From assembly GCA_038400315.1 (NCBI GenBank), contig CP151667.1:4909174-4973173 (forward strand): a stretch of DNA of 64,000 bases, written 5' to 3'. The notes beneath the pieces are model-generated. The model worked only from the letters and a program-made list of their open reading frames with translations, was not told where the DNA came from and ran no database searches. A program made the translations under genes and the position numbers. Every line of letters begins with the position of its first letter. Position 1 is the stretch's first letter. The stretch is from Isosphaeraceae bacterium EP7 (GTDB lineage: Bacteria > Planctomycetota > Planctomycetia > Isosphaerales > Isosphaeraceae). Below, one piece after another: positions 7,506 through 51,024 of this stretch.

Positions 7506-8840
7506 TTATCGGCCAAGATCCGCGAAGCCGGAGGTCGCGGCAGCGGCGGCGTTTGCTTGAGTATTGCCGGATTCGGCGGCGGCTTCGCGTGGGAGCGGCG
7601 CCGGCGGGGTGGTTGCTGGCTCGGCCGGATTGGCGGCTGCGGCGGACGTCGAGGGTGTCGGGCGCAGGCCGGTGACCAGTTGTGAGGCCGCGAGGATCCA
7701 GGCCTCGTCCGAGGTCCCCAGTTCCTTCGCCTGTCGGCGAGCCGTCGCCTCGTCGACCTTGGCCGAGGCCATCTGGTCGGCATACCAGACCGCCCCTGCG
7801 CGATTACCGTCCCCGTCGAAGAAATATGCCAGGCCCTTGCTCATCGCCAGCTCGGATCGGAAACGGCTCAGATGATCGGCATCCAGGGTCTTCAGCGACA
7901 CGGGGAGGGGAACATAACGGAGCCCACGCTGGGTCACGGCTTCAATGAAGGCGGGGGACATCTCGGAGGTTTCGCGGAGGTCGATCATCGTCTTGTAGCC
8001 CATCTTCGCCAGCCATTCGAGGCCCTCGGCGGCGGGCAGGCTGCCGCCGGCGACCTCGGGGGCGACTGAAACGAACCGCGCGATCCCGGGCGCCTTGGAT
8101 TGCGAGGCGGCGGGGATCGGCGGCGGGGTGGCATCGGTGGCCGGAGTCGCTGGCGGCTCGGGCGCGGCGGTCGGGGTCGCGGGCGCCGGGGCGGGGACCG
8201 GGTTGGCCTCGCCCAGGAGCTTGGGCTTGCTCGCCTCGGTCACCTCGCTGGGCAGGTCCAGCGGGGGGAGATTGTCGAGCGGGCTGGGCTCGGCGGCAGG
8301 CTTGGCGGCCGGATAATTGGTACGCGTGGCCTCGGGCCCACGCGCGAAACGCCCCCCCCGAGATTGGGGGCGGGCGGCCTCGTAAGAAGTTTTGTTCCCG
8401 GCCGGGGAGGCAGCGGCCCCCTTGGTCGTGGGCGCCGGCTCGATGCCACCCGGCTGAATCGGGGACGACTCCAGGGGCGAGATGTCCGGGACGACCGTCG
8501 AGGGAGTGCCCTGGATGACGGCGCCAGGAGCCACGATCACGCCCGGGGTGCCGTACTCGATGGGCATCGACTCGCCGCCGCACCCGCAATCCGCCGCCGC
8601 GGCGACGATCCGCCCCGACTTGCAGTGGAAGATGCGAGAGCCGAGCTCACGGAACTTGGCCCCGACGCCCGACAATACGGAGCGGGCACCCAATCCATTG
8701 CAGCCGCCGCAGCCGCCCAGCTGGCAACCGGTCTGCGCCAGCGTCGCGACCGCAAGCAATGCCGCCGCGGCCAGGCGGAAATAACCCGAGGCCGGTCGTC
8801 CCCGGCCACGTCCGCCGAAGATCACCCCGATTCGTCTCAT
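7506..8840 (-). CDS. Lipoprotein-like protein with cysteine-less phosphatase domain
   Basis: The ATG at 8840 is preceded by a strong GGAGGGGGAG ribosome site, giving 444 residues; the longer frame to 9143 is not needed. After a hydrophobic N-terminal segment (residues 19-38) comes TGCQLGGCGGCNG, where the first Cys may be a lipidation site, though the lipobox is imperfect. Residues of about 85-245 are Pro/Ala-rich linker. Residues of about 250-375 look like the tyrosine/dual-specificity phosphatase-like fold, with GLEWLAKMGYKTMIDLRE and the loop FFDGDGNRAG (340-349). Arg347 of the CX5R loop is kept, but no Cys is present. It is therefore probably catalytically inactive. The tail is Ala/Pro/Thr-rich. 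Confidence 0.72.
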   Translation of the reverse strand: MRRIGVIFGGRGRGRPASGYFRLAAAALLAVATLAQTGCQLGGCGGCNGLGARSVLSGVGAKFRELGSRIFHCKSGRIVAAAADCGCGGESMPIEYGTPGVIVAPGAVIQGTPSTVVPDISPLESSPIQPGGIEPAPTTKGAAASPAGNKTSYEAARPQSRGGRFARGPEATRTNYPAAKPAAEPSPLDNLPPLDLPSEVTEASKPKLLGEANPVPAPAPATPTAAPEPPATPATDATPPPIPAASQSKAPGIARFVSVAPEVAGGSLPAAEGLEWLAKMGYKTMIDLRETSEMSPAFIEAVTQRGLRYVPLPVSLKTLDADHLSRFRSELAMSKGLAYFFDGDGNRAGAVWYADQMASAKVDEATARRQAKELGTSDEAWILAASQLVTGLRPTPSTSAAAANPAEPATTPPAPLPREAAAESGNTQANAAAAATSGFADLGR

Positions 8841-9422
8841 CGCAGGCTCCCCCTCCATCGACCGAGACCCCGCTCGAACGCCGTCGACATGCCCGAAGGC
8901 TCGTCGCAGACGCTCTCGCTCGGCGCAAAGAACGGACAGGTCACGCGAGGGAAGTTGAGGTCGGCCGGGACGGCCTGGCCTCATCGTTCCATCGCCCGGG
9001 CAGAGTTCCTCGGCCGATCTCCGAATGCCCTCAAATCGCACATCCAGGGGATGCCGCCTCGAGAAACTCGGTGCAAGCCAGGAAATAAGGGCCGGTCGAC
9101 GCGGGACGCTCTTGGCGCGGGTGTCGGGTCGCAGGATGTTCATCGTTCACGCCGTTTCGTGGTGCCGGGCAACGCCCGGTCCCTCGTCGCGGCGAACCAG
9201 TCGTTCGGGCAGCACCCATTCGCTAAGGTCATCCGGGAAGACCCGGTCGGCCTTGCTGGTTGGGCAGACCGCCTCGTCGGAGGCCGGTCGCTGAACCATA
9301 GCCGATGATCCCCCGGTTGCAAAAAAATGAGGCCGATTTCTAGAATATGATTGACCTTATGACAAAAAGGTGCCCGCGAACCTTGCCCAGTCATCAATCT
9401 TAACGAGGACGTTTCATCCGTC
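8841..9422. other. Intergenic region between divergent genes, no gene seen
   Basis: These roughly 580 bases separate the divergent lipoprotein and glycosyltransferase genes. Open frames here have no ribosome site, no recognisable motif and implausible composition. The left part is ordinary GC-rich sequence. The last 120 bases are clearly richer in A and T and contain a good promoter for the glycosyltransferase pair. I saw no tRNA-like fold or repeat. Confidence 0.6.
9317..9346 (+). promoter_or_regulatory. Sigma-70 type promoter for the glycosyltransferase pair
   Basis: TTGCAA at 9317-9322 and TAGAAT at 9341-9346 are separated by 18 bases. Both hexamers are close to consensus and lie in an A/T-rich patch about 75 bases before the ATG at 9423. 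This is one of the best matches to a housekeeping promoter in the window. It is a visual call only. Confidence 0.5.
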
Positions 9423-10766
9423 ATGATCCCCCAAATCGGCACGACCCGGCCCGCAAGCCTCAAAACACGCGGCTGGACCTGGGGGGCGGCAATCGGGCTC
9501 TCCGCCCTGCTCTGGTTCTTCGTCGGAATTCCGGGCGAGGACGCGTTCGTCGACGAGTGGGCTTATGTCAGTCAGTCGTACTATGCCGATCTGTATCTCT
9601 CGGGGAACTGGGACGATCGGATGTGGCTGGACTACCCGGCCTATGACCTGCCCCCCCTGCCGAAGTACACGATCGGCCTCTCCCTGATGTCTCAGGGGTA
9701 CGCGCGTCCCAAGCGAGCCGCCGCGGTGGAGTGGTACCGGAACACGTCGTACGCCGCAGGGCCGCGATCGATGCTCATCGCCGCCCGCTGGCCAACCGCG
9801 GTGTTCGGAGCCTTCGGCTGCGTGGCCCTCTTCGCCCTGGGGAGCGTGGCCTTCGGGCGAGCCGTGGGCCTGGTCGCGGCAATCCTGCTGGCCTTGAATC
9901 CGCTCTACGCCTTGCACTCCCGCCGTGCCATGTCCGACGTGCCCGCGGAAGCCTTGATTCTGGCGACCGAAGCCCTGGCGCTCTTCCTGATCGTGCGAGC
10001 TGGACGATGGAGTCTCGCACGGTTCTTGGTCTGGGTTGGCGTGGGGATTCTCGGCGGGCTCGCGGTCCTTTCGAAGCTCAACGGATCGCTCGCTTTGATG
10101 ACCGTCGTGGCCTGGTCTGCGGCCGTCTTCTTCGTCCGGTCATGGCCCGCAGGTCGGAAATGGACCATCGCCTCGGCGACCGTGCTGGCGGGATGCGTCG
10201 GCCTGCTAACCTTCGCGCTGGGAAACCCATTCTTGACGGCCAACCCGGCGGTTCGGCTCGGCGGCGAGGATTCGAAGATCGCCGAGATGGGGATCATGCA
10301 GAGGGCACGCTACGTGGCCGACCATCGGGTCGGAGTCTCGAGCGGGGCCGCGAAGCAATTTCCCAACGACGCGCTGACGACCCTGCCGGCCAAGGTCTCG
10401 GTCATGTTGGTCCAGGGCCTGGGGCGTTTCGGTCCGTTCGGGCCTGCGCATTCCGACTCGACGAAGCGATTCGACCGGGCCCAGGACTGGGGTGCCCTGC
10501 CCTGGGGCTTCGGCTTGATGGTCGGGGCATTCTTCCTGATTCGACGGATCCTGGATGACCGATTAAACGGCCGGCCACCGACGGCGCTGCTCATCGCGGT
10601 CCAGGTTAGCCTCGCGGTGCTGGTCGTGACTGCGTTCATCCCGCTGGCCTGGGACCGCTATTTCTTGTCGATCCAGCCTTCGATGGCTCTGCTCGGAGCG
10701 CTCGGACTTTGCAGTCTCTACCGATGGCTGCGACCGAACGTCGTCGCCGGGAGTTTTCCCCGATGA
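9423..10766 (+). CDS. GT-C type glycosyltransferase (ArnT/PMT-like membrane protein)
   Basis: This 447-residue polytopic protein starts with a membrane segment (residues 20-34). An extracytoplasmic loop with GEDAFVDEWAYVSQSYY follows; Asp44-Glu45 sit where GT-C enzymes carry their acidic catalytic pair. The following segments (LNPLYALHSRRAMSDVPAEA) resemble the ArnT/PMT family (GT39/GT83 types), which transfer sugars from polyprenyl-phosphate carriers to lipids, glycans or proteins. About ten membrane spans are visible. Its stop overlaps the ATG of the next membrane protein (ATGA). Substrate unknown. Confidence 0.72.
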   Translation: MIPQIGTTRPASLKTRGWTWGAAIGLSALLWFFVGIPGEDAFVDEWAYVSQSYYADLYLSGNWDDRMWLDYPAYDLPPLPKYTIGLSLMSQGYARPKRAAAVEWYRNTSYAAGPRSMLIAARWPTAVFGAFGCVALFALGSVAFGRAVGLVAAILLALNPLYALHSRRAMSDVPAEALILATEALALFLIVRAGRWSLARFLVWVGVGILGGLAVLSKLNGSLALMTVVAWSAAVFFVRSWPAGRKWTIASATVLAGCVGLLTFALGNPFLTANPAVRLGGEDSKIAEMGIMQRARYVADHRVGVSSGAAKQFPNDALTTLPAKVSVMLVQGLGRFGPFGPAHSDSTKRFDRAQDWGALPWGFGLMVGAFFLIRRILDDRLNGRPPTALLIAVQVSLAVLVVTAFIPLAWDRYFLSIQPSMALLGALGLCSLYRWLRPNVVAGSFPR

Positions 10767-18756: not shown

Positions 18757-19026
18757 TCAGGCCTTGCCGTCGATTTCCTTGAGCACGCCCGCGAGCAGGG
18801 TCGGGTCTCGTTTCTCCAGAAGATGTGCGATGCGTGTCGCGGGAAATTCGAGCTTCGCCAGCGACTCGGCAACTTGCTTCCAGAGCCGATCTTGCTTCTT
18901 GGCGTCGGCCAGGTAGAGGTCCCCGACGAGTTGGGAGAGCTTCTGGAACTGGAGACCCTCGGAGTTCTCGTAATAGCGCTTGATGATCTTCTGCTGATGC
19001 GGGGAGTAGTTGCGTTCGGCCGCCAT
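18757..19026 (-). CDS. 89-residue conserved-looking helical protein
   Basis: The ATG at 19026 follows a GGAGG ribosome site and gives MAAERNYSPHQQKIIKRYYE. The rest is helical and charged (LSQLVGDLYLADAKKQDRLW, RIAHLLEKRDPTLLAGVL). There is no signal peptide or Cys motif. I recall similar short proteins in planctomycetes of unknown role. It lies 47 bases after the ArfB stop in the same direction, so the two may share a transcript. Confidence 0.7.
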   Translation of the reverse strand: MAAERNYSPHQQKIIKRYYENSEGLQFQKLSQLVGDLYLADAKKQDRLWKQVAESLAKLEFPATRIAHLLEKRDPTLLAGVLKEIDGKA

Positions 19027-19073
19027 GTTCAATCCTCCGGGGTGGGGCGGTCGGGGCGAGATTTCGCGCGGAA

Positions 19074-19493
19074 TCATTCCGACGAGGGCCCTCGCCTGAG
19101 CTTCTTGGTCTCGGAGCGTCGGACCTTGTCATCGACGCGGCGGGTCTGGGAGGCCTTGGTGGGCTTGGTCGCACGCCTGAGCGTGGGTGGGGTCAGCGCG
19201 GCCAGCACGGCCAGCCGGACCTTCTCCAGGCAGTCGTCGATGTTCCGCGACTGGTCGCGGGTTTTCTGCGAGGTGACCAGCCACTCCCCTTCCGTCGTGA
19301 GCTTCGAGCGGAGCTTGGCGAGCAATCGGGCTCGGACGGGCTCGCTGAGGCTGGGGCTGCGGCCCGGCGCCCAGCGGAGGAGGGCCTTGGAGTTTACCTT
19401 ATTGACGTTCTGCCCGCCGGGACCACCAGAGCGGGCGAACTCGAACGTGAACTCGTCCATCGGGATCGAGAGCCGTTCGCTGATCCGTAACAT
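19074..19493 (-). CDS. arfB: Ribosome-rescue peptidyl-tRNA hydrolase ArfB
   Basis: ArfB releases nascent chains from ribosomes stalled without a stop codon. The 139-residue protein has the release-factor motif RSGGPGGQNVNKVNSKALLRW with GGQ at residues 26-28. It ends with a basic tail (RRVDDKVRRSETKKLRRG), which in ArfB enters the empty mRNA channel. The small size and absence of domains 1 and 2 separate it from RF1/RF2. Confidence 0.92.
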   Translation of the reverse strand: MLRISERLSIPMDEFTFEFARSGGPGGQNVNKVNSKALLRWAPGRSPSLSEPVRARLLAKLRSKLTTEGEWLVTSQKTRDQSRNIDDCLEKVRLAVLAALTPPTLRRATKPTKASQTRRVDDKVRRSETKKLRRGPSSE

Positions 19494-19672: not shown

Positions 19673-21238
19673 TCAGGACGCCGAGGTCGAGTTGTAGTTG
19701 ACGGAGTAGGTCGAGTTCTTCGCTTTCGAGGAGGACAGGATCGCGGCGTTGCTGGCCTTCGGGGTAGACGCCGTGGCGACGGCCAGGTCGGCGAGGGCCG
19801 ACCTCTGGTTGATCTTCACGGTATTCATCGGGGCAAGGCTGGAAGACTGCGGGGATGCCGCACCTGGGGTGATGATCAAGGCTTCGAGCGCCGCGTCGGT
19901 CACATCATCCGGGGAGGAGGTTTGAACGACCTGGGCAGCCGTGGTCGCGGTCGTCGGGCTGAGCAGGCCTCGGTCGATCAGGGCATCTTGATTCTTGGCC
20001 CTGCGAGCGGCCGCGGCGGCCAGGTCGGCTTCGGAGTAGAACGACTCATCGCGGTTGAAGACCGGCGAGGAGCTTGAGAAGGTCGTCGTCCCGTCGGTCA
20101 GCGCTCCTGTGATCGTCCCGGAGGTGTAGCCCGGCGGCAGATCGACATCGAGGCCCCTGAAGACGAAGGTCCGGTCGAGGAACCCGTCCTTATTAATGTT
20201 CCGGGTGAAGTCGAAAGCCGGCTCCGCCCCTCCGAACCGCACCGTGGCCGGGTCGATCTGGGTCACGTCGAAGCCCGACGTCCCCAGAACTGAGACACGG
20301 ATATAAGTCGGGTGCGCCGTATTAATATGGCGGCCCGAGTGGGGATTGATCAGAATAGGCGGCGAGACGGGCGGGCAGACCGGGGGTGGGACGACGGGCG
20401 GCGTCGCGTCACCAAGGGTCACCGGAGCGGGCGGGAAGTAGGCCTCGCTGATCCCGTCGTCGTCATTGGAGTTGCCGAATGCACCGACCTTGAAGGTGCT
20501 TGTCGCGGTCAGGTCGGCGCCCGTCTTGAGCTTGTAGAGCTGCGAGAAATTCTTGATGCTGAATTCGAAGTTGGGGTGGGCAGGGTCGTTGACGAGGTAG
20601 ACATTACCCGCATATTCCGGCCTAAGCGTGCCGAAACCGGGGATCGTCGATGGGAAGCTGGGGTTGACCGTCGCGTCGGCAACCTGGTATGTCTTCGGCA
20701 CCCCGGCGTCGCTGGCGATACCAGCCACGATATCGGGGATGCCGTCGCTATTCAGGTCGAGGATGGCCCCCATCGTCTCCGAGCCGCGAAGGTCGGGGAA
20801 GTCGATGAAGCTGGGCTCGATCGCGAGGACGCTGTCGGCGACGGAAGATGAGTCGAGGTTGTTGTCGGTGTCGCCGGAGATGACCGGCTGACCCGTCTTT
20901 TGATTATCGGGCTGTCCCAGCCCAATGCTGAGGGTATCATCCGCGGGCGTGTAGGAAACCCGGATTTCGTTGATGTCCAGGCCCGAGACCTTCACGTCGC
21001 TCTCAATGAGCGCGGGAATCAAGGGGTGGACGACCGCGGGGCTATCGGGGATGACGACAACGCCCGGGGACATTGTAGCGGGAAAGTCGGTTATGACGTT
21101 TCCCGTGAAGTTGACGGCCAGGAGCTTCCGATGATCGAGATGCTCGAAGGAGACGACGGCCCGTTGCGCGGTCTTCACACCACCGCGACGATGCCGCCAC
21201 GATCCAACGAGCTTCGCGAGTTTCGTGTACAACGACAT
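19673..21238 (-). CDS. Large exported protein with LEPR-XLL-like N terminus
   Basis: The 521-residue protein has a long basic N terminus followed by FEHLDHRKLLAVNF, a variant of the LEPR-XLL motif. Residues of about 45-270 form a domain with VNFTGNVITDF, SYTPADDTLSIGL, HPNFEFSIKNFSQLYKL and VGAFGNSNDDDG, all of which recur in the divergent PEP-CTERM protein. A Pro-rich linker follows (PPVVPPPVCPPVSPP), then a beta-rich domain with TFVFRGLDVDLPPGYTSG. The tail is Ala/Ser/Thr-rich. GDTDNN and DLNSDGIPD look like calcium-binding loops. AAGGACG precedes the ATG. It is probably on the cell surface; no function known. Confidence 0.75.
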   Translation of the reverse strand: MSLYTKLAKLVGSWRHRRGGVKTAQRAVVSFEHLDHRKLLAVNFTGNVITDFPATMSPGVVVIPDSPAVVHPLIPALIESDVKVSGLDINEIRVSYTPADDTLSIGLGQPDNQKTGQPVISGDTDNNLDSSSVADSVLAIEPSFIDFPDLRGSETMGAILDLNSDGIPDIVAGIASDAGVPKTYQVADATVNPSFPSTIPGFGTLRPEYAGNVYLVNDPAHPNFEFSIKNFSQLYKLKTGADLTATSTFKVGAFGNSNDDDGISEAYFPPAPVTLGDATPPVVPPPVCPPVSPPILINPHSGRHINTAHPTYIRVSVLGTSGFDVTQIDPATVRFGGAEPAFDFTRNINKDGFLDRTFVFRGLDVDLPPGYTSGTITGALTDGTTTFSSSSPVFNRDESFYSEADLAAAAARRAKNQDALIDRGLLSPTTATTAAQVVQTSSPDDVTDAALEALIITPGAASPQSSSLAPMNTVKINQRSALADLAVATASTPKASNAAILSSSKAKNSTYSVNYNSTSAS

Positions 21239-21525
21239 CGCGCTTACGTCCTTTCAAACTTGGACCGCGTGCGACCCGCGGAGTGACTGAGCGGCACGAG
21301 AAGTTGGGATGATCCGAAGGCCGAGGATCGGCCAGAGGACCAACCGTGGCGCGAGAGCGTCCTGTCTCGCACACCGGAGGGGAGTCCGGTGGGAGTGGCC
21401 TCAAGGCCGCCGATCGATCCGGACGAGTAGCCCCGCGATCCATCCCCGACCGGCCTACCCCGCGAGCGAGGTCGGCGAGCCGGGGATGTCTGAGCTGAAC
21501 ACCTTAACGTGGAAGGAGACTCGTT

Positions 21526-22377
21526 ATGGTTCGCCGAAGAGTGTTCCGCTGGTGCCTTGCCGTCGCCGCGCTGTCGGGCGTACGGGCCGCATCCGCGGAC
21601 GCCATCAACTTTACTGGTAACGTCGCCAACGACATGGTGATCTCGAAGACCTCCAACACGGTCCAGATCAACCGAGGTGCAGGCCATGTCGCCCAGGCCA
21701 AGTGGATGACCGACCGAGGTTGGACCTCGGGCTGGAGCATCAACGACATGCGCCTGTCGTACGACCAGAAGACCGACACGATGTTCGTCGGCGTCAACTT
21801 CTTCGGGATCGCCGGCGACTCCGACGGCAATGGCGACCCCGGCTCGGCCGACGCTAAAACGTTGGCTTCCGGCGGAATTGACCTGGCCCACCTGGGTGGC
21901 CGGAAGTCGATCTCCGTGGCCTTCGCGCCCGACTCTGCCAGCGGGCTGAGCAAGGCCGGGGCTCCGGTCCTGATCGCTGGCGTGCCGGCCGACAAGTCGC
22001 AGGCGGGAACGGGCATCAACGGCTTCAATGTCGCCGCCTACAAGCCGTCCAACATGGGGATTGCCTACAATTACGGCAAGACGCTGACCGACCACATGGG
22101 GGCCCTGGCCTTCGACCCGTCGGCGGAGCACCCCGGCTTCGAGTTCACGATCACGAACTTCAGCAAGATTGTCGGACTCGACCCGTCGAAGGGTTTCTGG
22201 GTCCAGGCCTTCGCCGGCTCGCCCGACGATATCGTGGCCGGCGAGGATTCGGTCCCGCTGACCAGGATCGGGCCTCTCAGCCCGCAGGTTCCCGAGCCCA
22301 CCACGGTCGTGGCCTGGGGTTCGGTCCTGCTGGGTGGCGCACTCTGGCGGTCGCGACGTCGTCGCGCCTCGGCCTGA
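21526..22377 (+). CDS. PEP-CTERM exported protein
   Basis: A GGAAGGAG ribosome site precedes the ATG. The 283-residue protein has a signal peptide (residues 1-25). It ends with a textbook PEP-CTERM signal: VPEPTT, a hydrophobic segment and the basic tail RSRRRRASA, which exosortase would recognise and cleave. The mature domain contains INFTGNVANDMV, MRLSYDQKTDTMFVGV, GDSDGNGDPG and HPGFEFTITNFSKIVGL, matching the divergent LEPR-XLL protein. GDSDGNGDPG may bind calcium. No exosortase gene is in the window. It is probably an extracellular or surface protein. Confidence 0.82.
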   Translation: MVRRRVFRWCLAVAALSGVRAASADAINFTGNVANDMVISKTSNTVQINRGAGHVAQAKWMTDRGWTSGWSINDMRLSYDQKTDTMFVGVNFFGIAGDSDGNGDPGSADAKTLASGGIDLAHLGGRKSISVAFAPDSASGLSKAGAPVLIAGVPADKSQAGTGINGFNVAAYKPSNMGIAYNYGKTLTDHMGALAFDPSAEHPGFEFTITNFSKIVGLDPSKGFWVQAFAGSPDDIVAGEDSVPLTRIGPLSPQVPEPTTVVAWGSVLLGGALWRSRRRRASA

Positions 22378-22690
22378 GCGTACATCCCGATCCTTGGGAA
22401 GCATCCGTCAACTCCCATCCATGAGAAGGCGGCGGTCCGATCCCTCGGGCCGCCGCCTCATTTCATCGACGCTCCCGCCCCGCCAGTCGAGATGCAGTGC
22501 ACTTCCTGCCCGACCCGCCCTCCGACATCGTGCATCATGAGACTGTCTTGCCCCGCCGTCACAACCGGCCGAGTCAAGTCCCCTTCTATCGTGGTGAGCG
22601 ATAGGCCGTCGCGGTCGCGTTCCAAAGTGGTTGATCGCCCCGCCTCTCTCAGGTAGCCTGGCTGAAATCACCTCCAGGGGGAGATCAGCC
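22378..22690. other. Intergenic region with terminator
   Basis: These 313 bases hold a hairpin terminator for the PEP-CTERM gene near the left end and a GGGGGAG ribosome site for the following exported protein at the right end. The open frames in it are shadows without ribosome sites. No repeat or RNA fold was noticed otherwise. Confidence 0.55.
22427..22458 (+). terminator. Hairpin terminator after the PEP-CTERM gene
   Basis: AGGCGGCGG and CCGCCGCCT form a perfect 9-base stem around a 14-base loop, followed by CATTTC. It lies 50 bases after the stop codon at 22377. Confidence 0.6.
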
Positions 22691-23254
22691 ATGGACGACC
22701 GCCGGACGTTGCTGCATGCCGATCGTTGGGCCTTCATGTTGGCCATGCTCCTCGTGTCCGCCCACATAGCGGGCGCGGCAGACGACGAGCCCGGGGCCAC
22801 CGACCTGTCGATGACCGAGGCCGTGGTTTGCAGCACGATCCATGGATTCGAGGACTTCGAAGCGCGGTCTTCCCCGAGCCTTACGGCCGACGAGAAACTG
22901 CTCGTCTACTACAAGCCGCTTAATTACAGGGTGGACTCGAAGGGGGAGCGGTACTTCCTCCACCTGACCCAAGACGGGCAGATCAGGCGTCGGGGCAGCA
23001 AGACGGTGATCTGGAAGAAGAGCAAGCTGCTCGACTATGACGTCGACACCACCAAGTCACCTGGCACGGTCTATCTCACCAATACGGTTGCACTGAAGCA
23101 GTTGCGGCCGGGTGAGTACGAGTATGAGATCATCCTGCGCGACGAGCGGGACGGGGGCCAGGTCGCGACCCAGGTCGTCAAGTTCGAGGTCGTGCCCCCT
23201 GCCACGACGGTTCGCAAAACCACGCCGGATGCGTCCGAGTCGAAGGGCCGTTGA
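22691..23254 (+). CDS. Exported protein of unknown function, beta-rich
   Basis: GGGGGAG precedes the ATG at 22691; the longer frame from 22631 lacks such a site. The 187-residue protein has a signal peptide (residues 1-30, ending SAHIAGA). The mature part is mostly beta strand: KLLVYYKPLNYRVDSKGERY, then LRPGEYEYEIILRDERDGGQ and VVKFEVVPP, which looks like an immunoglobulin-like fold. No catalytic motif or family is recognised. Confidence 0.7.
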   Translation: MDDRRTLLHADRWAFMLAMLLVSAHIAGAADDEPGATDLSMTEAVVCSTIHGFEDFEARSSPSLTADEKLLVYYKPLNYRVDSKGERYFLHLTQDGQIRRRGSKTVIWKKSKLLDYDVDTTKSPGTVYLTNTVALKQLRPGEYEYEIILRDERDGGQVATQVVKFEVVPPATTVRKTTPDASESKGR

Positions 23255-23285: not shown

Positions 23286-24428
23286 TCAGGAGGCGGGCGT
23301 TCGACTCTTTGGGGGCGTGTACGGCTCCTCGAAGGGGAGCCTACGCTGCGCGTCGGGTTCGAGAGGGAGGTCGGCCCTGGGCCTGGCCGCGCGGATATAG
23401 ACGTCCATCTGCTGACCGACATACAGGAAGTCGGGGTGGGGATCGGGCAACTCGTAGACGACCTGGAGGACTCGAGTGTCGACGCGCTCGGAGTTGTCGC
23501 CGGTCAGGCTTTTCTTGGGGATGACATAAGGTTCGATCTTGTAGAGCTCGAGATTGAATCGTACCTGCGGTCGACCTTTGAGAGTCGCGATCGCCTCGGC
23601 CTTCTTGTCGAAGAGGGGGAGGTCGTTCTCGTCGATGTCGACGCGGACGTGCAGGCGTTGGAGATCCCCCAGGATGATGAGGGGCTCTTTCCAGACGAGC
23701 GCGGCGTACTGTCCGGGGCGGACGTTGACCTGCAGGATCTCGCCATCGGCCAATGAGCGGACGACCAGCCGGTCGAGCGTGCTCCGGACCTGCTCGACCA
23801 GGCTCTCGGCCTGGAGGACCGAAACCCGGGCGATCTCGAGGTCTTCCTTCCAGGTGCCCGCTTCCATCTTCCTCAGGTCGGCCTCGGCCTTGGCCAGTGC
23901 GGCGCGGGCCCCGCTCACGGTGAAGCGGTCCTTATCGTAGTCGCTGGCGGGCACCATTTGCTTGGCATAGAGCCGCTCGGAGCGGCCCGCCGCGGCCTCC
24001 GCGTCGGCGAGGTGGGCGCGGGCTTCCTCGACGGCGGCACGCAAGGGCGGGAGATCTTCCTGCCTGGGAGCGGCTTCGAGCTTTCGAAGTTGCGCCTTGG
24101 ATGCGGCCAACGCCGCCTCGCGGACTTTGCACTCGGCTTGATACTCGCGGTCGTCGAGCCTGAAGAGGGGTTGCCCTTTCTTGACTCGATCTCCGATCTT
24201 GACGAAGACCTCGACGACGACTCCGGGGATCGTCGCGCCGATCGGAATATTCTCCAACCGGGCCTCAATCAAACCCGCGCCCGCGATGGCCCGGACGCTG
24301 CTCGGGCGAGTTGGCGGCACGACGATCGGAAGCGAGGTGGGCGATGCCTTGCGAGCTTCGACCACGCTGAAGATCGCATAGGCCAGGCCGACGACGGCCA
24401 GCAGGGGCAGGACGTAGCGTGGGACCAT
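23286..24428 (-). CDS. HlyD/DevB-type membrane fusion protein
   Basis: The 380-residue adaptor has an N-terminal membrane anchor (residues 5-23). A lipoyl-like half-motif follows (IPGVVVEVFVKIGDRVKKGQ, then PLFRLDDREYQAE). Next comes a long Ala/Glu/Lys coiled-coil hairpin (about residues 95-205) and the second lipoyl half with LADGEILQVNVRPGQYA. This is the architecture of DevB, the periplasmic adaptor that links a DevCA ABC exporter to an outer-membrane TolC-like channel. It is the last gene of the exporter operon, 75 bases after the ATPase gene. No TolC homologue is in the window. Confidence 0.87.
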   Translation of the reverse strand: MVPRYVLPLLAVVGLAYAIFSVVEARKASPTSLPIVVPPTRPSSVRAIAGAGLIEARLENIPIGATIPGVVVEVFVKIGDRVKKGQPLFRLDDREYQAECKVREAALAASKAQLRKLEAAPRQEDLPPLRAAVEEARAHLADAEAAAGRSERLYAKQMVPASDYDKDRFTVSGARAALAKAEADLRKMEAGTWKEDLEIARVSVLQAESLVEQVRSTLDRLVVRSLADGEILQVNVRPGQYAALVWKEPLIILGDLQRLHVRVDIDENDLPLFDKKAEAIATLKGRPQVRFNLELYKIEPYVIPKKSLTGDNSERVDTRVLQVVYELPDPHPDFLYVGQQMDVYIRAARPRADLPLEPDAQRRLPFEEPYTPPKSRTPAS

Positions 24429-24503
24429 CTCGGGTCTCCGCCTTTCAAGTGAGTGGGAATGCCGGCGGAATTCGGCCGGGCGCCGGCCTCCAGATCGGTT
24501 CGA

Positions 24504-25286
24504 TCAATCATCAGGGTGTGCCGGGGCAAGCCCGGGCACCTGGTCTCGCATCTCGGCCACCCGTCCATCGTCCATCCGGACAATCCTGTCGGCGAAATGG
24601 AAGACGCGGTTATCGTGCGTGACAACGACCACCGATCGGTCAACGCGCACCGCGGCTTCACGCAGCAATTCCATGACGGTCTGTCCGGTCTCGTGGTCGA
24701 GAGCGGCTGTGGGTTCGTCGCAGACGAGGAGGCTGGGCTCGTGCACCAGCGCCCTGGAGATGGCGACGCGCTGCTGCTGGCCGCCGGAAAGCTGGTTGGG
24801 GAGGCTCTCGGTCTTGTTTCCCATGCCCAGGCTTTGAAGCACCGATCGCGCGCGGTCAACCGCTTCGGCCTTCTTCATGCCGGCGATGACCAGCGGGATC
24901 GCGGCATTCTCGGCGGAGGTGAGCGCCGGCAGGAGATTGTATTGCTGGAAGACGAAGCCAATCCTTCTGGCCCGGAAGCGGGTGCGTTCGCGATCTCGCA
25001 TCGCGGTCACGTCGCTGCCGAAGATTTCGACCGCCCCTTCGTCGGGGTTGAGGATCCCCGCAATGACCGAGAGCAAGGTCGTCTTGCCGCAGCCCGAGGG
25101 GCCGATAATCATCGACATCTTCCCCTTCTGAAACTCGCAGCTGACGCCCCGAAGGGCATGGACCTTCTGCTCACCGGCTCCGAACGTCTTGACCACGCCC
25201 CTGACCCGGACCGCGACGGGGTCGGCTTCCTGGTCAAGGCCCGTTGATGTCATCCCCGATGGAGTTGCGATCGCCATCAATTCCAT
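24504..25286 (-). CDS. DevA/LolD-type ABC transporter ATPase
   Basis: The 260-residue ATPase has Walker A GPSGCGKTT (62-70), the Q-loop region FVFQQYNLLPALT, the signature LSGGQQQRVAISRAL, Walker B LLVCDEPTAALD and the switch His in VVVTHD. These are the features of the MacB/LolD/DevA family, which powers FtsX-like permeases. It lies 47 bases downstream of the permease gene and before the adaptor gene. An ATG at residue 4 or 12 is a possible alternative start. Confidence 0.92.
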   Translation of the reverse strand: MELMAIATPSGMTSTGLDQEADPVAVRVRGVVKTFGAGEQKVHALRGVSCEFQKGKMSMIIGPSGCGKTTLLSVIAGILNPDEGAVEIFGSDVTAMRDRERTRFRARRIGFVFQQYNLLPALTSAENAAIPLVIAGMKKAEAVDRARSVLQSLGMGNKTESLPNQLSGGQQQRVAISRALVHEPSLLVCDEPTAALDHETGQTVMELLREAAVRVDRSVVVVTHDNRVFHFADRIVRMDDGRVAEMRDQVPGLAPAHPDD

Positions 25287-25333
25287 GACTCCACCTGCTC
25301 GTCATACCACATCCTCGATCCGACTCGCGTGGC

Positions 25334-26620
25334 TCAACCGCGGAAGACAACAGCGGGCTCGAGGACGATCACGCGACGAACGGACAGGATGCTCGCCAGC
25401 ATGCAAATGAAGACGACAGCGACGCCGGTAATCGGCAGCAACTGCCAGGGTGTATAGAAGGCAAGCTCCGTACCTTTGCTCCGCGCCCCGAAGAGTGCAG
25501 CAGCCCCGACGCCAATTCCGTAACCCAACAAGCCGACGACGGTGGCCTGGAGCAAGATCATCCGGACGATGGTCAGGTTGGTCGCCCCCATCGCCTTGAG
25601 AGCACCGAACTGCTTGAGGTTTTCCAGCGTGAAGTTGTAGAACGTTTGCCCAGCGATGGCGGTGCCGACGAGAAAACCCAGGACGGCGGTGATGCCGAAG
25701 TTGATGGGGATTCCCGTATATTTCAAGTAATAGTCGATGGTCATCCAGGTGAATTCGTCGCTGGTCTTCGCCCCCAGGTCGGTCTGCTCGGTGATGCGCT
25801 TGGCCACGTCCTGAGGCGCCAGTCCCGGCTCAGTCTTGGCCAGGATATACGAAAGGACCTTACGCTCTTGAGGGGCGTACTGCTTGGCCCGACTGTAGGT
25901 CGTGTAGAAGACCGCATTCGACTGGAACGTGCGAGTTGCCTCGCAGACGGCCACGATGACGGCCCGACGATCGTTCATCTCCAGGTCGCGGCCGATGAAC
26001 GTTTTGAAGAACTTCACGCGTCCGTCATCGCCCGCGGGGATCGAGCCATATGCAGCCAGGAATCGGGCCTGGACCTCCTTCGAGAGACTGGTCGCGAGCT
26101 TGCCATTCGCCTCGAGCAGCCCCCAGTCTTCGCCGGGATAGAGCTTCTGGAGGCGGGTTGAGTCGACCATGACCGCATCGGGCTTGCGGAGGTTGATCAG
26201 GTCGCCCTCCAGGATCCGCTGGGGCGGCGGGGCCCCGACCATCGAGGTGTCGTCGAGCCCCAGGAGGATGATCTGCTCGATGACCTCGTGCCGGGTACCG
26301 TCGTAGCCCGTCGAGTTCAGCTTGGCCCGAGCATTTCCTTTGTAGAGCGGGACGGCCCACAGCACCCCCTCGACGCCGCGCACCCGGTACAGATTGTTCT
26401 CGATCATGGGTTTGACGTCGTCGATGAATCGGACGTTGGGGTCCATCACCCAGAGGTCGGCCCCGGTGATGTCGGAGATCTGGCCCGCGGTCCGCAGCAT
26501 CAGGCCGCAGAAGATCGACCCTTGCTGGGTGATCAGGAGCGCCGCGAAGGTGAGGCCCATGACGATGCCGTAAAACTTGGCCCTGTCGCCGACAAGCATC
26601 TTCAACGCGATCCAGCTCAT
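25334..26620 (-). CDS. DevC-type FtsX-like permease
   Basis: The 428-residue permease has one N-terminal membrane span (residues 17-38), a long periplasmic domain with DITGADLWVMDPNVRFIDDV and three C-terminal spans, as in DevC. The C terminus shows FGALKAMGATNLTIVRMIL, the FtsX/MacB coupling-helix motif. It overlaps the upstream TetR gene in an ATGA junction and is followed by the ATPase. In cyanobacteria DevBCA exports glycolipids; the substrate here is unknown. Confidence 0.9.
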   Translation of the reverse strand: MSWIALKMLVGDRAKFYGIVMGLTFAALLITQQGSIFCGLMLRTAGQISDITGADLWVMDPNVRFIDDVKPMIENNLYRVRGVEGVLWAVPLYKGNARAKLNSTGYDGTRHEVIEQIILLGLDDTSMVGAPPPQRILEGDLINLRKPDAVMVDSTRLQKLYPGEDWGLLEANGKLATSLSKEVQARFLAAYGSIPAGDDGRVKFFKTFIGRDLEMNDRRAVIVAVCEATRTFQSNAVFYTTYSRAKQYAPQERKVLSYILAKTEPGLAPQDVAKRITEQTDLGAKTSDEFTWMTIDYYLKYTGIPINFGITAVLGFLVGTAIAGQTFYNFTLENLKQFGALKAMGATNLTIVRMILLQATVVGLLGYGIGVGAAALFGARSKGTELAFYTPWQLLPITGVAVVFICMLASILSVRRVIVLEPAVVFRG

Positions 26621-27324
26621 CGTGGATCCCCGCTCGTCTCGGAACCGACGGCCGCGACCGTCTCGCCGGCGCTGTCGAGGGGCGGGAGCAGCCCGAGGGC
26701 GGCCAGGGTCATCGAGCTGATGTGATCGGCCAGGAACGCCACGTTCAACTCGCTTGGATCAAGATCGTTCGCCAAGCGCGATGAGATGTGTGGCACGAGA
26801 CGATAGTGCAGGCATTGCCCCAACACGCTGAAGGCCAGCGCGTGCATCCGACGCGGGTTGGCATCGGGGCAGATCCTTCGCAAGATCCCCTGGAGCTGAT
26901 CATAAAACGGGCGACTTCCTTCCCGCACGAGGGTCTCGGTGGCCGGAGTCGGGGCCATCAGCTCCCGAAGGATGAGCGCCTGAGTCCAATCACCCTCCTC
27001 GACGACGGCGAGCGTCTTACAAAGGAAGTGACGAATGTAGACGCGCAATTGCGCAGCCGGCTCGGCTTCCGGGTCGATTTCAAGCAGGTTGATCCGACAT
27101 TGGTGGGCGTGGAGCACGGCCGCGATGTAGAGGTTCGCCTTGTCGTTGAAGTAGTAATTGACCGCCGCGATGTTCACTTCCGCCAGCTTGCAGATGGACC
27201 GAATCGTGCCACATTCGAATCCCTTCTCCGCGAAGACGCGGACGGCGGCCTGCAGGATTCGATCCCTGGGGTGTTCGGGATTCACGGCGAGGACCCCCAG
27301 ATTTGACCGACTTCGATGGACCAT
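26617..27324 (-). CDS. TetR-family regulator of the DevBCA-type exporter
   Basis: The 235-residue protein has an N-terminal TetR DNA-binding domain (RILQAAVRVFAEKGFECGTI, then LAEVNIAAVNYYFNDKANLY). The C-terminal domain resembles the CecR/YbiH type (HFLCKTLAVVEEGDWTQALI, PDANPRRMHALAFSVLGQCL). It is the first gene of the exporter operon and its stop overlaps the permease start. It is therefore likely a repressor that controls its own operon in response to a toxic or lipid-like compound. A promoter with an overlapping inverted repeat lies directly upstream. Confidence 0.9.
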   Translation of the reverse strand: MVHRSRSNLGVLAVNPEHPRDRILQAAVRVFAEKGFECGTIRSICKLAEVNIAAVNYYFNDKANLYIAAVLHAHQCRINLLEIDPEAEPAAQLRVYIRHFLCKTLAVVEEGDWTQALILRELMAPTPATETLVREGSRPFYDQLQGILRRICPDANPRRMHALAFSVLGQCLHYRLVPHISSRLANDLDPSELNVAFLADHISSMTLAALGLLPPLDSAGETVAAVGSETSGDPR

Positions 27325-49181: not shown

Positions 49182-50465
49182 TCAGACCTTGGCCTTGGCC
49201 GAGGGCTTCCAGTTCGACCAGCTCGTGATCCAGCTCGGGTCGAAGCTGGAGGCGGAGGGCTTCGAGTTCGCGGAGGCCAGGGGGGCCAGTGTGGAATCCC
49301 TGAACGAGATCGGCTGCGACGCGTTGGTGTCGGGCGTCTGAGACTTGGTCGGGGTCGTCGAAACGGGAGGGACGACCGGGGTCACGGCGGGCGTGACGAC
49401 GGCGGCCACTACGGGGGTGACGACCGGGGTCTTCACGGGGACGACAACCGGGGTCTTCACGGGCGTGACGACGGCGGTCTTTACGGGGCTGGCGACGGCG
49501 GCCTGGGCTCGGACGGGCTGGATCACCGAGACGGGCTTGGCGATGGTCACGGGCGGGGTGGCGTCACCGGCCTGCGACTGATCAATGCGGAAGTCAACCT
49601 TCACGTTGGACGACTGGATGTTGACCGACTGGCTCCCGATCAGCTTCGATCCGTCGGTCGCCGAGACCTGATAGGTGCCCGGGTCGAGGGGAATCTGGTA
49701 CCCGCCCGAATCCCAGGTCTGAACCTGCGAGACCTTGCCGGTGCTGACATTCTTCGCCTGGATCGTCACGTCGCTGGCGCCTTCGCCGGGCGTGTAGAAG
49801 TTGTTGCCGTTCTTGTCGTCATAGACAACCCCGAGCACCTGCGACTTGTCGCCGGTGCTGCGGGCCATGTCCTGGGTGACGACGAGCGGGCCGAATCCGG
49901 GCTTGTTGCTCTTGACGATCCCGAGGCCGATTTCGTCGAAGCTCTGGTCCGACGAGTTCGTCTGGAGCAGGTTGTTGCGGTGCCCCTTGCTGTCCACACC
50001 CCAGTCGATCAGGAAGGCCCGCATGGAGTCGTCGACCGAGTCGGCGTAGGCGTAGGCGTTCTCGGAGGTGGCCGACGCGTCGAGGCCGGTACGAGTGATT
50101 CGATCGTTGGAGCTCGACCCGTCGGAGCCGGTATGCGACTGGAAGCCGTTGGCCGCCTGGTCCTGGCTGTGGGCCGTGGCGGCCGCGGCAAGCTTGTCGC
50201 TCCAGGCGAGAGGAGCCCTCGGCGTGATCGACGCGATCGCCTGCTTCTCGGCCTGCAGGTTGACCTTGTAGTAGGCCAGCGTGTTGACGGTCTGGTCGTC
50301 GAGCTTGGTCGTGAGACGATCGATGGTGGCCCCGGCGTTCGAGCGGGCGGCGTTGACCAACTCGAGCATGTACTGGGCCTCCGCGGTCGGGCCGCCGGAG
50401 GACAGGACCTGTCGGGACTCAAGATTTTCCATCAACGGCTGATGGCGGACGGACATCCGAGTCAT
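49182..50465 (-). CDS. CAP-domain surface protein with LEPR-XLL type N terminus
   Basis: AAGGAGG lies 5 bases before the ATG at 50465. The 427-residue protein has MENLESRQVLSS (LEPR-XLL variant) and a CAP/SCP domain at about residues 30-190: YMLELVNAARSNAGATIDRL, APLAWSDKLAAAATAHSQDQ, TSENAYAYADS and DSKGHRNNLL. A beta domain with GVVYDDKNGNNFYTPGEGAS, possibly calcium-binding and carboxypeptidase-regulatory-like, follows. A Val/Thr/Pro/Lys repeat tail has units of PVKTPVV. CAP proteins bind lipids or act on peptides; the active-site His pattern is partly present. Confidence 0.83.
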   Translation of the reverse strand: MTRMSVRHQPLMENLESRQVLSSGGPTAEAQYMLELVNAARSNAGATIDRLTTKLDDQTVNTLAYYKVNLQAEKQAIASITPRAPLAWSDKLAAAATAHSQDQAANGFQSHTGSDGSSSNDRITRTGLDASATSENAYAYADSVDDSMRAFLIDWGVDSKGHRNNLLQTNSSDQSFDEIGLGIVKSNKPGFGPLVVTQDMARSTGDKSQVLGVVYDDKNGNNFYTPGEGASDVTIQAKNVSTGKVSQVQTWDSGGYQIPLDPGTYQVSATDGSKLIGSQSVNIQSSNVKVDFRIDQSQAGDATPPVTIAKPVSVIQPVRAQAAVASPVKTAVVTPVKTPVVVPVKTPVVTPVVAAVVTPAVTPVVPPVSTTPTKSQTPDTNASQPISFRDSTLAPLASANSKPSASSFDPSWITSWSNWKPSAKAKV

Positions 50466-51024
50466 TCGGGCCTCCTTGCCCATATCGGCGGCCCCCCGAG
50501 GGGGCGGAAGAGTGAAGTATCCACCCCGATCATCGAGGCGACTTTCCGTTGCGTTTCAGGCGTCGAAACTTGAGGAAAACCGCATCATTTCGGGGCGGGC
50601 TTGATGGCTCTGAAGAAAAGCAAGCCCAATGCCATCGCGGCGGAATCTGTCCGAAAATTCGCGTCGTGTGTCGCAAACCTTGGAAACTTCGGTGGTTCGG
50701 ATTTCCATTTCCCCGCCCACCCGGCTTGTTCCCCACTTGCATCGAACTTGCGCCGGACCAATCGCCGTTCCGGCCTTGTTACGTTCTTACAAATAAGTGG
50801 TTCTTACAAGATCAACACGCGAAACATTTTCCGACGGAAATGCTGCTCAAGTTTCGAGTTATGTCATCCGATTGGGGGCGATTTTTTCCGAAATGAGCAG
50901 AAAAAGACTGGTGATTTGCCGTCTCGCGGTCGAGGGGTTGTCAACTGCCGGCCGGGGCTTCATCATGAGGCGTACGTAGCCCGGACATTTCGATCCGGGC
51001 GAGAGACGAGCCTGGAGCCGTGAG
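50466..51024. other. A/T-rich divergent promoter region
   Basis: This 559-base region between the CAP and phosphohexomutase genes is A/T-richer than the genes around it. Frames of 115 and 140 residues in it lack ribosome sites and have random-looking composition, so I call no gene. It holds the two 10-base direct repeats at 50783-50809 and poly-T/poly-A tracts near 50880. Confidence 0.55.
50783..50809. repeat. Direct repeat GTTCTTACAA, 17-base period
   Basis: GTTCTTACAA occurs at 50783-50792 and again at 50800-50809, a 17-base period. The pair lies about 215 bases before the phosphohexomutase ATG in an A/T-rich region, so it may be a regulator binding site or part of a promoter. Confidence 0.5.

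Follow-up and report, generated by a model that had tools for sequence, protein, structure and literature searches.

Two divergently transcribed genes of Isosphaeraceae bacterium EP7 raise the question of whether a single protein domain has been duplicated side by side and directed to the cell surface by two distinct sorting signals, as had been proposed in an initial annotation of the locus. The genes were studied within a window of 64,000 nt (GCA_038400315.1, CP151667.1:4,909,174-4,973,173, forward strand), in which a leftward gene, here termed B, and a rightward gene, termed A, are arranged head to head, with both open reading frames (ORFs) lying exactly at the coordinates first annotated. 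The features of the locus are collected in Table 1.

Table 1. Features of the A/B locus and its neighbourhood, with positions counted along the window.
Feature	Position	Strand	Basis or remark
Gene B, leftward protein, 521 aa	19673..21238	-	ORF; family orthologues
Gene A, rightward protein, 283 aa	21526..22377	+	ORF; family orthologues
Intergenic region of the divergent pair, 287 bp	21239..21525	.	about 210-310 bp across 20 loci
B leader, residues 1-41, basic N terminus (MSLYTKLAKLVGSWRHRRGG...), ending FEHLDHRKLLA	21116..21238	-	hydropathy and regex over pairs; alignment A3
LEPR-XLL-like motif of B, FEHLDHRKLLA (family consensus LExLDHRQLLS)	21116..21148	-	pattern recurs near the N termini of other ORFs in the genome
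Shared domain in B, residues 42-275, immediately after leader	20414..21115	-	BLASTP and profile-profile; beta-rich in AlphaFold model
Second beta domain of B, about residues 293-400, no counterpart in A	20039..20362	-	B alignment and AlphaFold model
C-terminal tail of B, residues 422-521, low-complexity, probably disordered, no PEP-CTERM	19676..19975	-	pLDDT <50
A signal peptide, residues 1-26, cleavage predicted near ASADA	21526..21603	+	sequence; N-terminal hydrophobic stretch of A proteins
Shared domain in A, residues 26-249, immediately after signal peptide	21601..22272	+	BLASTP and profile-profile; AlphaFold model
A PEP-CTERM sorting domain, residues 254-280: VPEPTTVVAW, hydrophobic segment, RSRRRR	22285..22365	+	TIGR02595; PF07589 just under cut-off
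A conserved translation leader, ACGTGGAAGGAGACTCGTTATG (also given as ACGTGGAAGGAGACTCGT)	21507..21528	+	conserved in 26 loci
B conserved translation leader, GAAAGGACGTAAGCGCGATG	21236..21255	-	conserved across loci
DevBCA/MacAB-like ABC exporter (HlyD-type adaptor, ATPase, FtsX permease), putative link to pair	23286..26620	-	synteny
TetR/CecR-type regulator	26617-27324	-	with exporter (23286-27324), syntenic with pair in 8-10 relatives

The Shared Domain

Every motif that had been named as common to the two proteins was found in both, with VNFTGNV, DTLSIGL, GDTDNN and HPNFEFSIKNFS present in B and INFTGNV, DTMFVGV, GDSDGNGD and HPGFEFTITNFS in A. The proteins align by BLASTP with 27% identity over 267 columns (E=6e-15), and a profile-profile comparison of A residues 26-249 with B residues 41-275 yields a probability of 99.9% and E=2.3e-36 over a domain of ~220 aa. 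This alignment had been set beforehand as the refuting test, and in it the motifs are both collinear and significant. The domain is present in only two copies in this genome. Sequence searches gave no match above cut-off to a Pfam, NCBIfam or PDB family; phage hyaluronidase chains were set aside, as the B profile matched them only at E~0.008 and over 70 residues. Some likeness exists to the acidic-loop (DxDxDG) repeats of the FG-GAP family (PF01839), with weak single matches at DxNxDGxPDIVAG in a few members. Unlike those repeats, the protein B of this genome contains one partial, unrepeated match, which scores 13 bits against the 22.1 required for gathering. The domain constitutes an undescribed family, scattered over Planctomycetota.

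Structural models have been obtained for both proteins. AlphaFold renders A as a beta-rich domain with a mean pLDDT of 84.8, and B as two beta-rich domains, of which the shared one lies mostly at pLDDT 80-95. A fold search with A returned no significant match (best E 0.026, TM 0.2-0.3); dopamine beta-hydroxylase (probability 0.92) and Ig-like beta sandwiches were considered, and at TM 0.2-0.3 no fold was assigned. For B, many matches to antibody Fab structures were detected at E~1e-4 with a TM of about 0.15, and these were read as reflecting two tandem beta sandwiches and not homology. The acidic loops GDxDxNG and DxNxDGxxD are kept in B and in outgroup homologues and less so in A orthologues, which suggests that folding may be stabilised by calcium. 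PEP-CTERM proteins are known to be associated with exopolysaccharide (PMC1569441), and on this ground the domain most likely acts in adhesion or as part of a matrix and is displayed in two forms, with exosortase sorting one of them and the leader the other. Given that the fold of A has no significant match, both calcium binding and adhesion are conjectures drawn from the sequence.

Conservation of the Pair

Among 40 genomes (this one and 39 relatives), the domain was detected in 23, which all belong to one family; the 15 genomes from other families of the class gave no match. A wider search at class level sampled 45 Isosphaeraceae genomes and returned no full-domain match from any other family of the class in the sample, and a survey of these for the same arrangement, which the initial annotation had suggested, located the divergent head-to-head pair in 38 by our count. 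Within these 38, a contig end cuts A in G007 and G132 and limits the B frame of G102 to its first 53 residues. In the family genomes outside the 38, A is missing or broken at a contig end, and most of them are incomplete: A is broken in this way in G006 and G021, and the A domain was not found in G002, G010, G117, G176 and G136, all of which except G002 are at most 89% complete. A scan of contigs with a single protein revealed four relatives (two Isosphaeraceae MAGs, Paludisphaera soli and one Planctomycetota MAG), while a second scan of this type over genome contigs gave none.

Additional copies have been observed in two genomes. In G020 the domain is expanded to at least five A- or B-type places (L055, L062, L063 and L064), among them a 998-aa B-type protein with the leader VEPLESRRLLA. 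One A-type copy of this genome (L055:8597-9674) is split into two overlapping frames (N part 8622-9674, C part 8597-9310), and is either a frameshifted copy or the result of a sequencing error. An extra, unpaired B-type copy with the leader variant WLERRDVPA occurs in G005 (L060:5526-7352, minus strand).

Conservation of the intergenic region is restricted to its two ends, which are the translation-initiation leaders of A and B. That of A is shared by ~20 genera, and nothing else in the genome matches it closely. No conserved promoter element was found between the genes. The A leader is flanked by an imperfect inverted repeat around the Shine-Dalgarno sequence, with no significant covariation. 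An RNA hairpin at this site (ACGxG..CxCGT) is not supported, as 73% of cells are paired but 41-199 of 500 shuffles reach the same measures. Two short genes near the pair, at 18757-19077 (minus strand) and 22631-23254 (plus strand), have no Pfam match; relatives of the first were detected in 15 fetched loci and of the second in 14.

Origin by a Single Duplication

A maximum-likelihood tree of 68 domains (31 A, 29 B and 8 outgroup) was calculated from 245 columns of divergent sequence. The 31 A sequences form one clade (support 100/98) and the 29 B sequences another (100/100), with the outgroups apart (97/90) on a short stem of 0.18 leading to the family. This topology indicates one duplication before the radiation of the Isosphaeraceae and, together with the synteny of the pair, bears out the proposal that one ancestral domain was duplicated head to head. 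The short stem and the divergence of the 245 columns count against the reading.

The outgroups are eight homologues (L093-L100) from five families outside the class. They were first found with the A profile, and a repeat with the B profile over 392 genomes of the phylum recovered the same ones, with additional matches being only partial and weak, which answers the concern that an A-biased profile had selected them. They share with A and B the collinear series FTGxV ... YVGI ... GDADGDGD ... DVIAGV ... EFxIxxFS; unlike the pair of the family, they have ordinary signal peptides and different C-terminal parts, and no divergent A/B pair occurs in the fetched stretches. These homologues are scattered among genomes, with up to three full copies in one of them (G251) and varied C-terminal parts. 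Each of the eight has an ordinary hydrophobic leader in front of the domain; a PEP-CTERM tail is present in L097 and the other outgroup frames end without one. Since the outgroups begin with ordinary signal peptides, the B leader is read as a replacement and a derived state. The ancestor thus probably carried a plain signal peptide, for which the B leader would have been substituted at the exact boundary of the domain. This boundary is the same in both proteins, with A reading ...ASADAINFTGNV and B reading ...RKLLAVNFTGNV.

Sorting Signals of Protein A

The description of A as a protein with a signal peptide and a PEP-CTERM tail holds well. In the main set, complete A proteins possess a hydrophobic N-terminal segment, judged by hydropathy to be a Sec signal peptide with an AxA-type site in most, as well as a PEP-CTERM tail; the exceptions are fragments and the copies of G020, one of which (L063) has no clear hydrophobic start at the start codon picked by the script. 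The tail of A in this genome scores 17.1 bits against NCBIfam TIGR02595 (cut-off 16) and falls just under the cut-off of Pfam PF07589 (17.7 against 20.7). In an alignment of 19 relatives, the P-E-P, T and W positions of the motif are invariant, and the AlphaFold model places a C-terminal helix at residues 258-282.

When compared to the PEP-CTERM/exosortase (EpsH) system (TIGR02595, PF07589; PMC1569441), A displays the same N-terminal signal, PEP motif, hydrophobic segment and arginine cluster, and differs in that its motif takes the form PEPxTxxxW and in that the copy of this genome is just under the Pfam cut-off. The genome encodes one full-length exosortase (PF09721, E=1.9e-60, G000:C1:1413946), a second match being weak, as well as 42 PEP-CTERM matches over the cut-off. 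From its sequence features, A is a probable exosortase substrate.

The Leader and Extra Parts of Protein B

Paired B proteins of the main set carry a leader of the type LExLDHRxLLS, beginning at residue 29-36, and have no hydrophobic signal-peptide core and, as first reported, no PEP-CTERM tail; two regex matches, PQPVT (L053, where B is truncated) and PQPAAA (L143), do not represent PEP motifs. The maximum hydropathy over 12 residues is at most 1.3 for paired B, compared with 1.4-3.1 for paired A outside G020. The same division of leader and tail between A and B is seen in further pairs beyond the main set. Residues L34 and R37 of the B leader are invariant (alignment A3). The reading frame of B closes five codons upstream of the ATG (open frame of 526 aa) and a conserved ribosome-binding leader precedes this start, so that no signal peptide can be hidden upstream.

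The LEPR-XLL-like nature of this N terminus, claimed from the start, stands as a resemblance and not as a family membership. The N-terminal pattern L-E-x-L-x-x-R-x-L-L-[SA], placed after a short basic leader in paired B and present in variants elsewhere, is shared with other ORFs: at least 15 of them in this genome carry a pattern of the type LExLExRxLLA close to the N terminus, an ELWxxDGT-repeat protein being one example. Unlike the LEPR-XLL domain (NF012209), B has D-H-R where the model has E-P-R, and the curated model gave no match at E<=1 to any of 19 B proteins, so that B can be described as LEPR-XLL-like and not as a filed member. No experimental work on LEPR-XLL function, nor any paper giving the leader a function, was found in the openly accessible papers searched. 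Elsewhere in the window, an ORF at 49182-50483 (minus strand) with the leader NLESRQVLSS (variant NLESRQVLS) and a weak CAP/YkwD-like match constitutes a second LEPR-like candidate.

Beyond the shared domain, B has a second beta domain and a low-complexity tail of ~100 aa, both absent from A, and the pair is therefore not a clean swap of signals. Tails across the B family are rich in A, S, P and T, and a DUF11 insertion has been detected in two B proteins of one genus. The pair thus offers, as suggested, a good natural comparison of two signals, with the match being imperfect on account of the extra domain and tail.

Proposed Model and Alternatives

The explanation that we consider likely as a whole is that A and B are paralogues built on a putative calcium-stabilised adhesive or matrix domain, with A sorted by exosortase and B exported through its leader as a partner. 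One duplication predating the radiation of the Isosphaeraceae gave rise to the two genes, which have stayed adjacent and divergent ever since. A would use a Sec signal peptide, be held by its PEP-CTERM helix and be processed by the single full-length exosortase, to end up at the outer surface or within exopolysaccharide. B would have lost its signal peptide, with a planctomycete leader of the LExLExRxLLS type taking over at the exact start of the domain. Having no membrane tail, B would be exported by whichever pathway reads this leader, with probable cleavage near RxLL[SA], and would partner A in a soluble or matrix-bound form. The earlier idea of two separate routes to the surface, one for each protein, is plausible.

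The B leader might instead be a weak or unusual Sec-type signal, with both proteins crossing the same translocon and the LEPR-like motif acting after export in processing or attachment. We regard this reading as possible, though doubtful. The motif ends RQLLSV or RKLLAV, in which small residues come after a short apolar stretch, and the first ~20 residues of B are basic with a helix predicted at residues 2-12; in A and the outgroups too, the domain starts directly after the cleavage region. The hydropathy values count against it, as paired B lacks a hydrophobic core comparable to the signal peptides of A.

It is improbable that B is an intracellular protein which is never exported and has no more than a resemblance to the LEPR pattern at its N terminus, even though it has neither a canonical signal peptide nor a model-level LEPR-XLL match. 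The pairs examined retain the leader, its pattern opens ORFs for ELWxxDGT-repeat and CAP/YkwD-like proteins, which are typical extracellular modules, and the outgroup homologues carry signal peptides. In addition, the extra B copies of G020 and G005 retain variants of the pattern (ESLDPRVVLS, VEPLESRRLLA and WLERRDVPA).

Slightly less credence is given to the reading in which the DevBCA/MacAB-like exporter adjoining A carries B, or a product on which the pair acts, so that the cluster would form one export unit. Adaptor, ATPase and permease lie near the pair in the loci of 9-10 relatives, and a functional link is possible from this synteny. However, the exporter was not found in the remaining loci, some of which are short. 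Neighbourhood alone is a weak argument, and genes of an RF-1-like protein and of DNA polymerase delta are also syntenic. Exporters of the DevBCA/MacAB type are, moreover, more commonly associated with lipids and small molecules than with proteins of 500 aa. Lastly, an accidental pair, formed by two independent insertions of a common domain side by side, could be imagined from the scatter of the domain in other classes and its expansion in G020, and is refuted in practice by the single A and B clades, the same divergent order in 38 genomes and the mere two copies in this genome.

Significance

The model of two paralogues with separate signals gives a family-wide pair of small proteins in which one domain is preceded, at the same boundary, by either a leader of the LEPR-XLL type or an ordinary signal peptide. 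The pair thus provides a nearly matched test of the role of the leader and of its cut site, for which A, the probable exosortase substrate, serves as the control. More tentatively, the LExLDHRxLLS leader may be a genuine alternative export and processing signal of planctomycetes, functionally interchangeable with a Sec signal peptide and swapped at the exact start of the domain, with both versions, a surface-sorted protein and a released partner, having been kept side by side for the whole history of the family.
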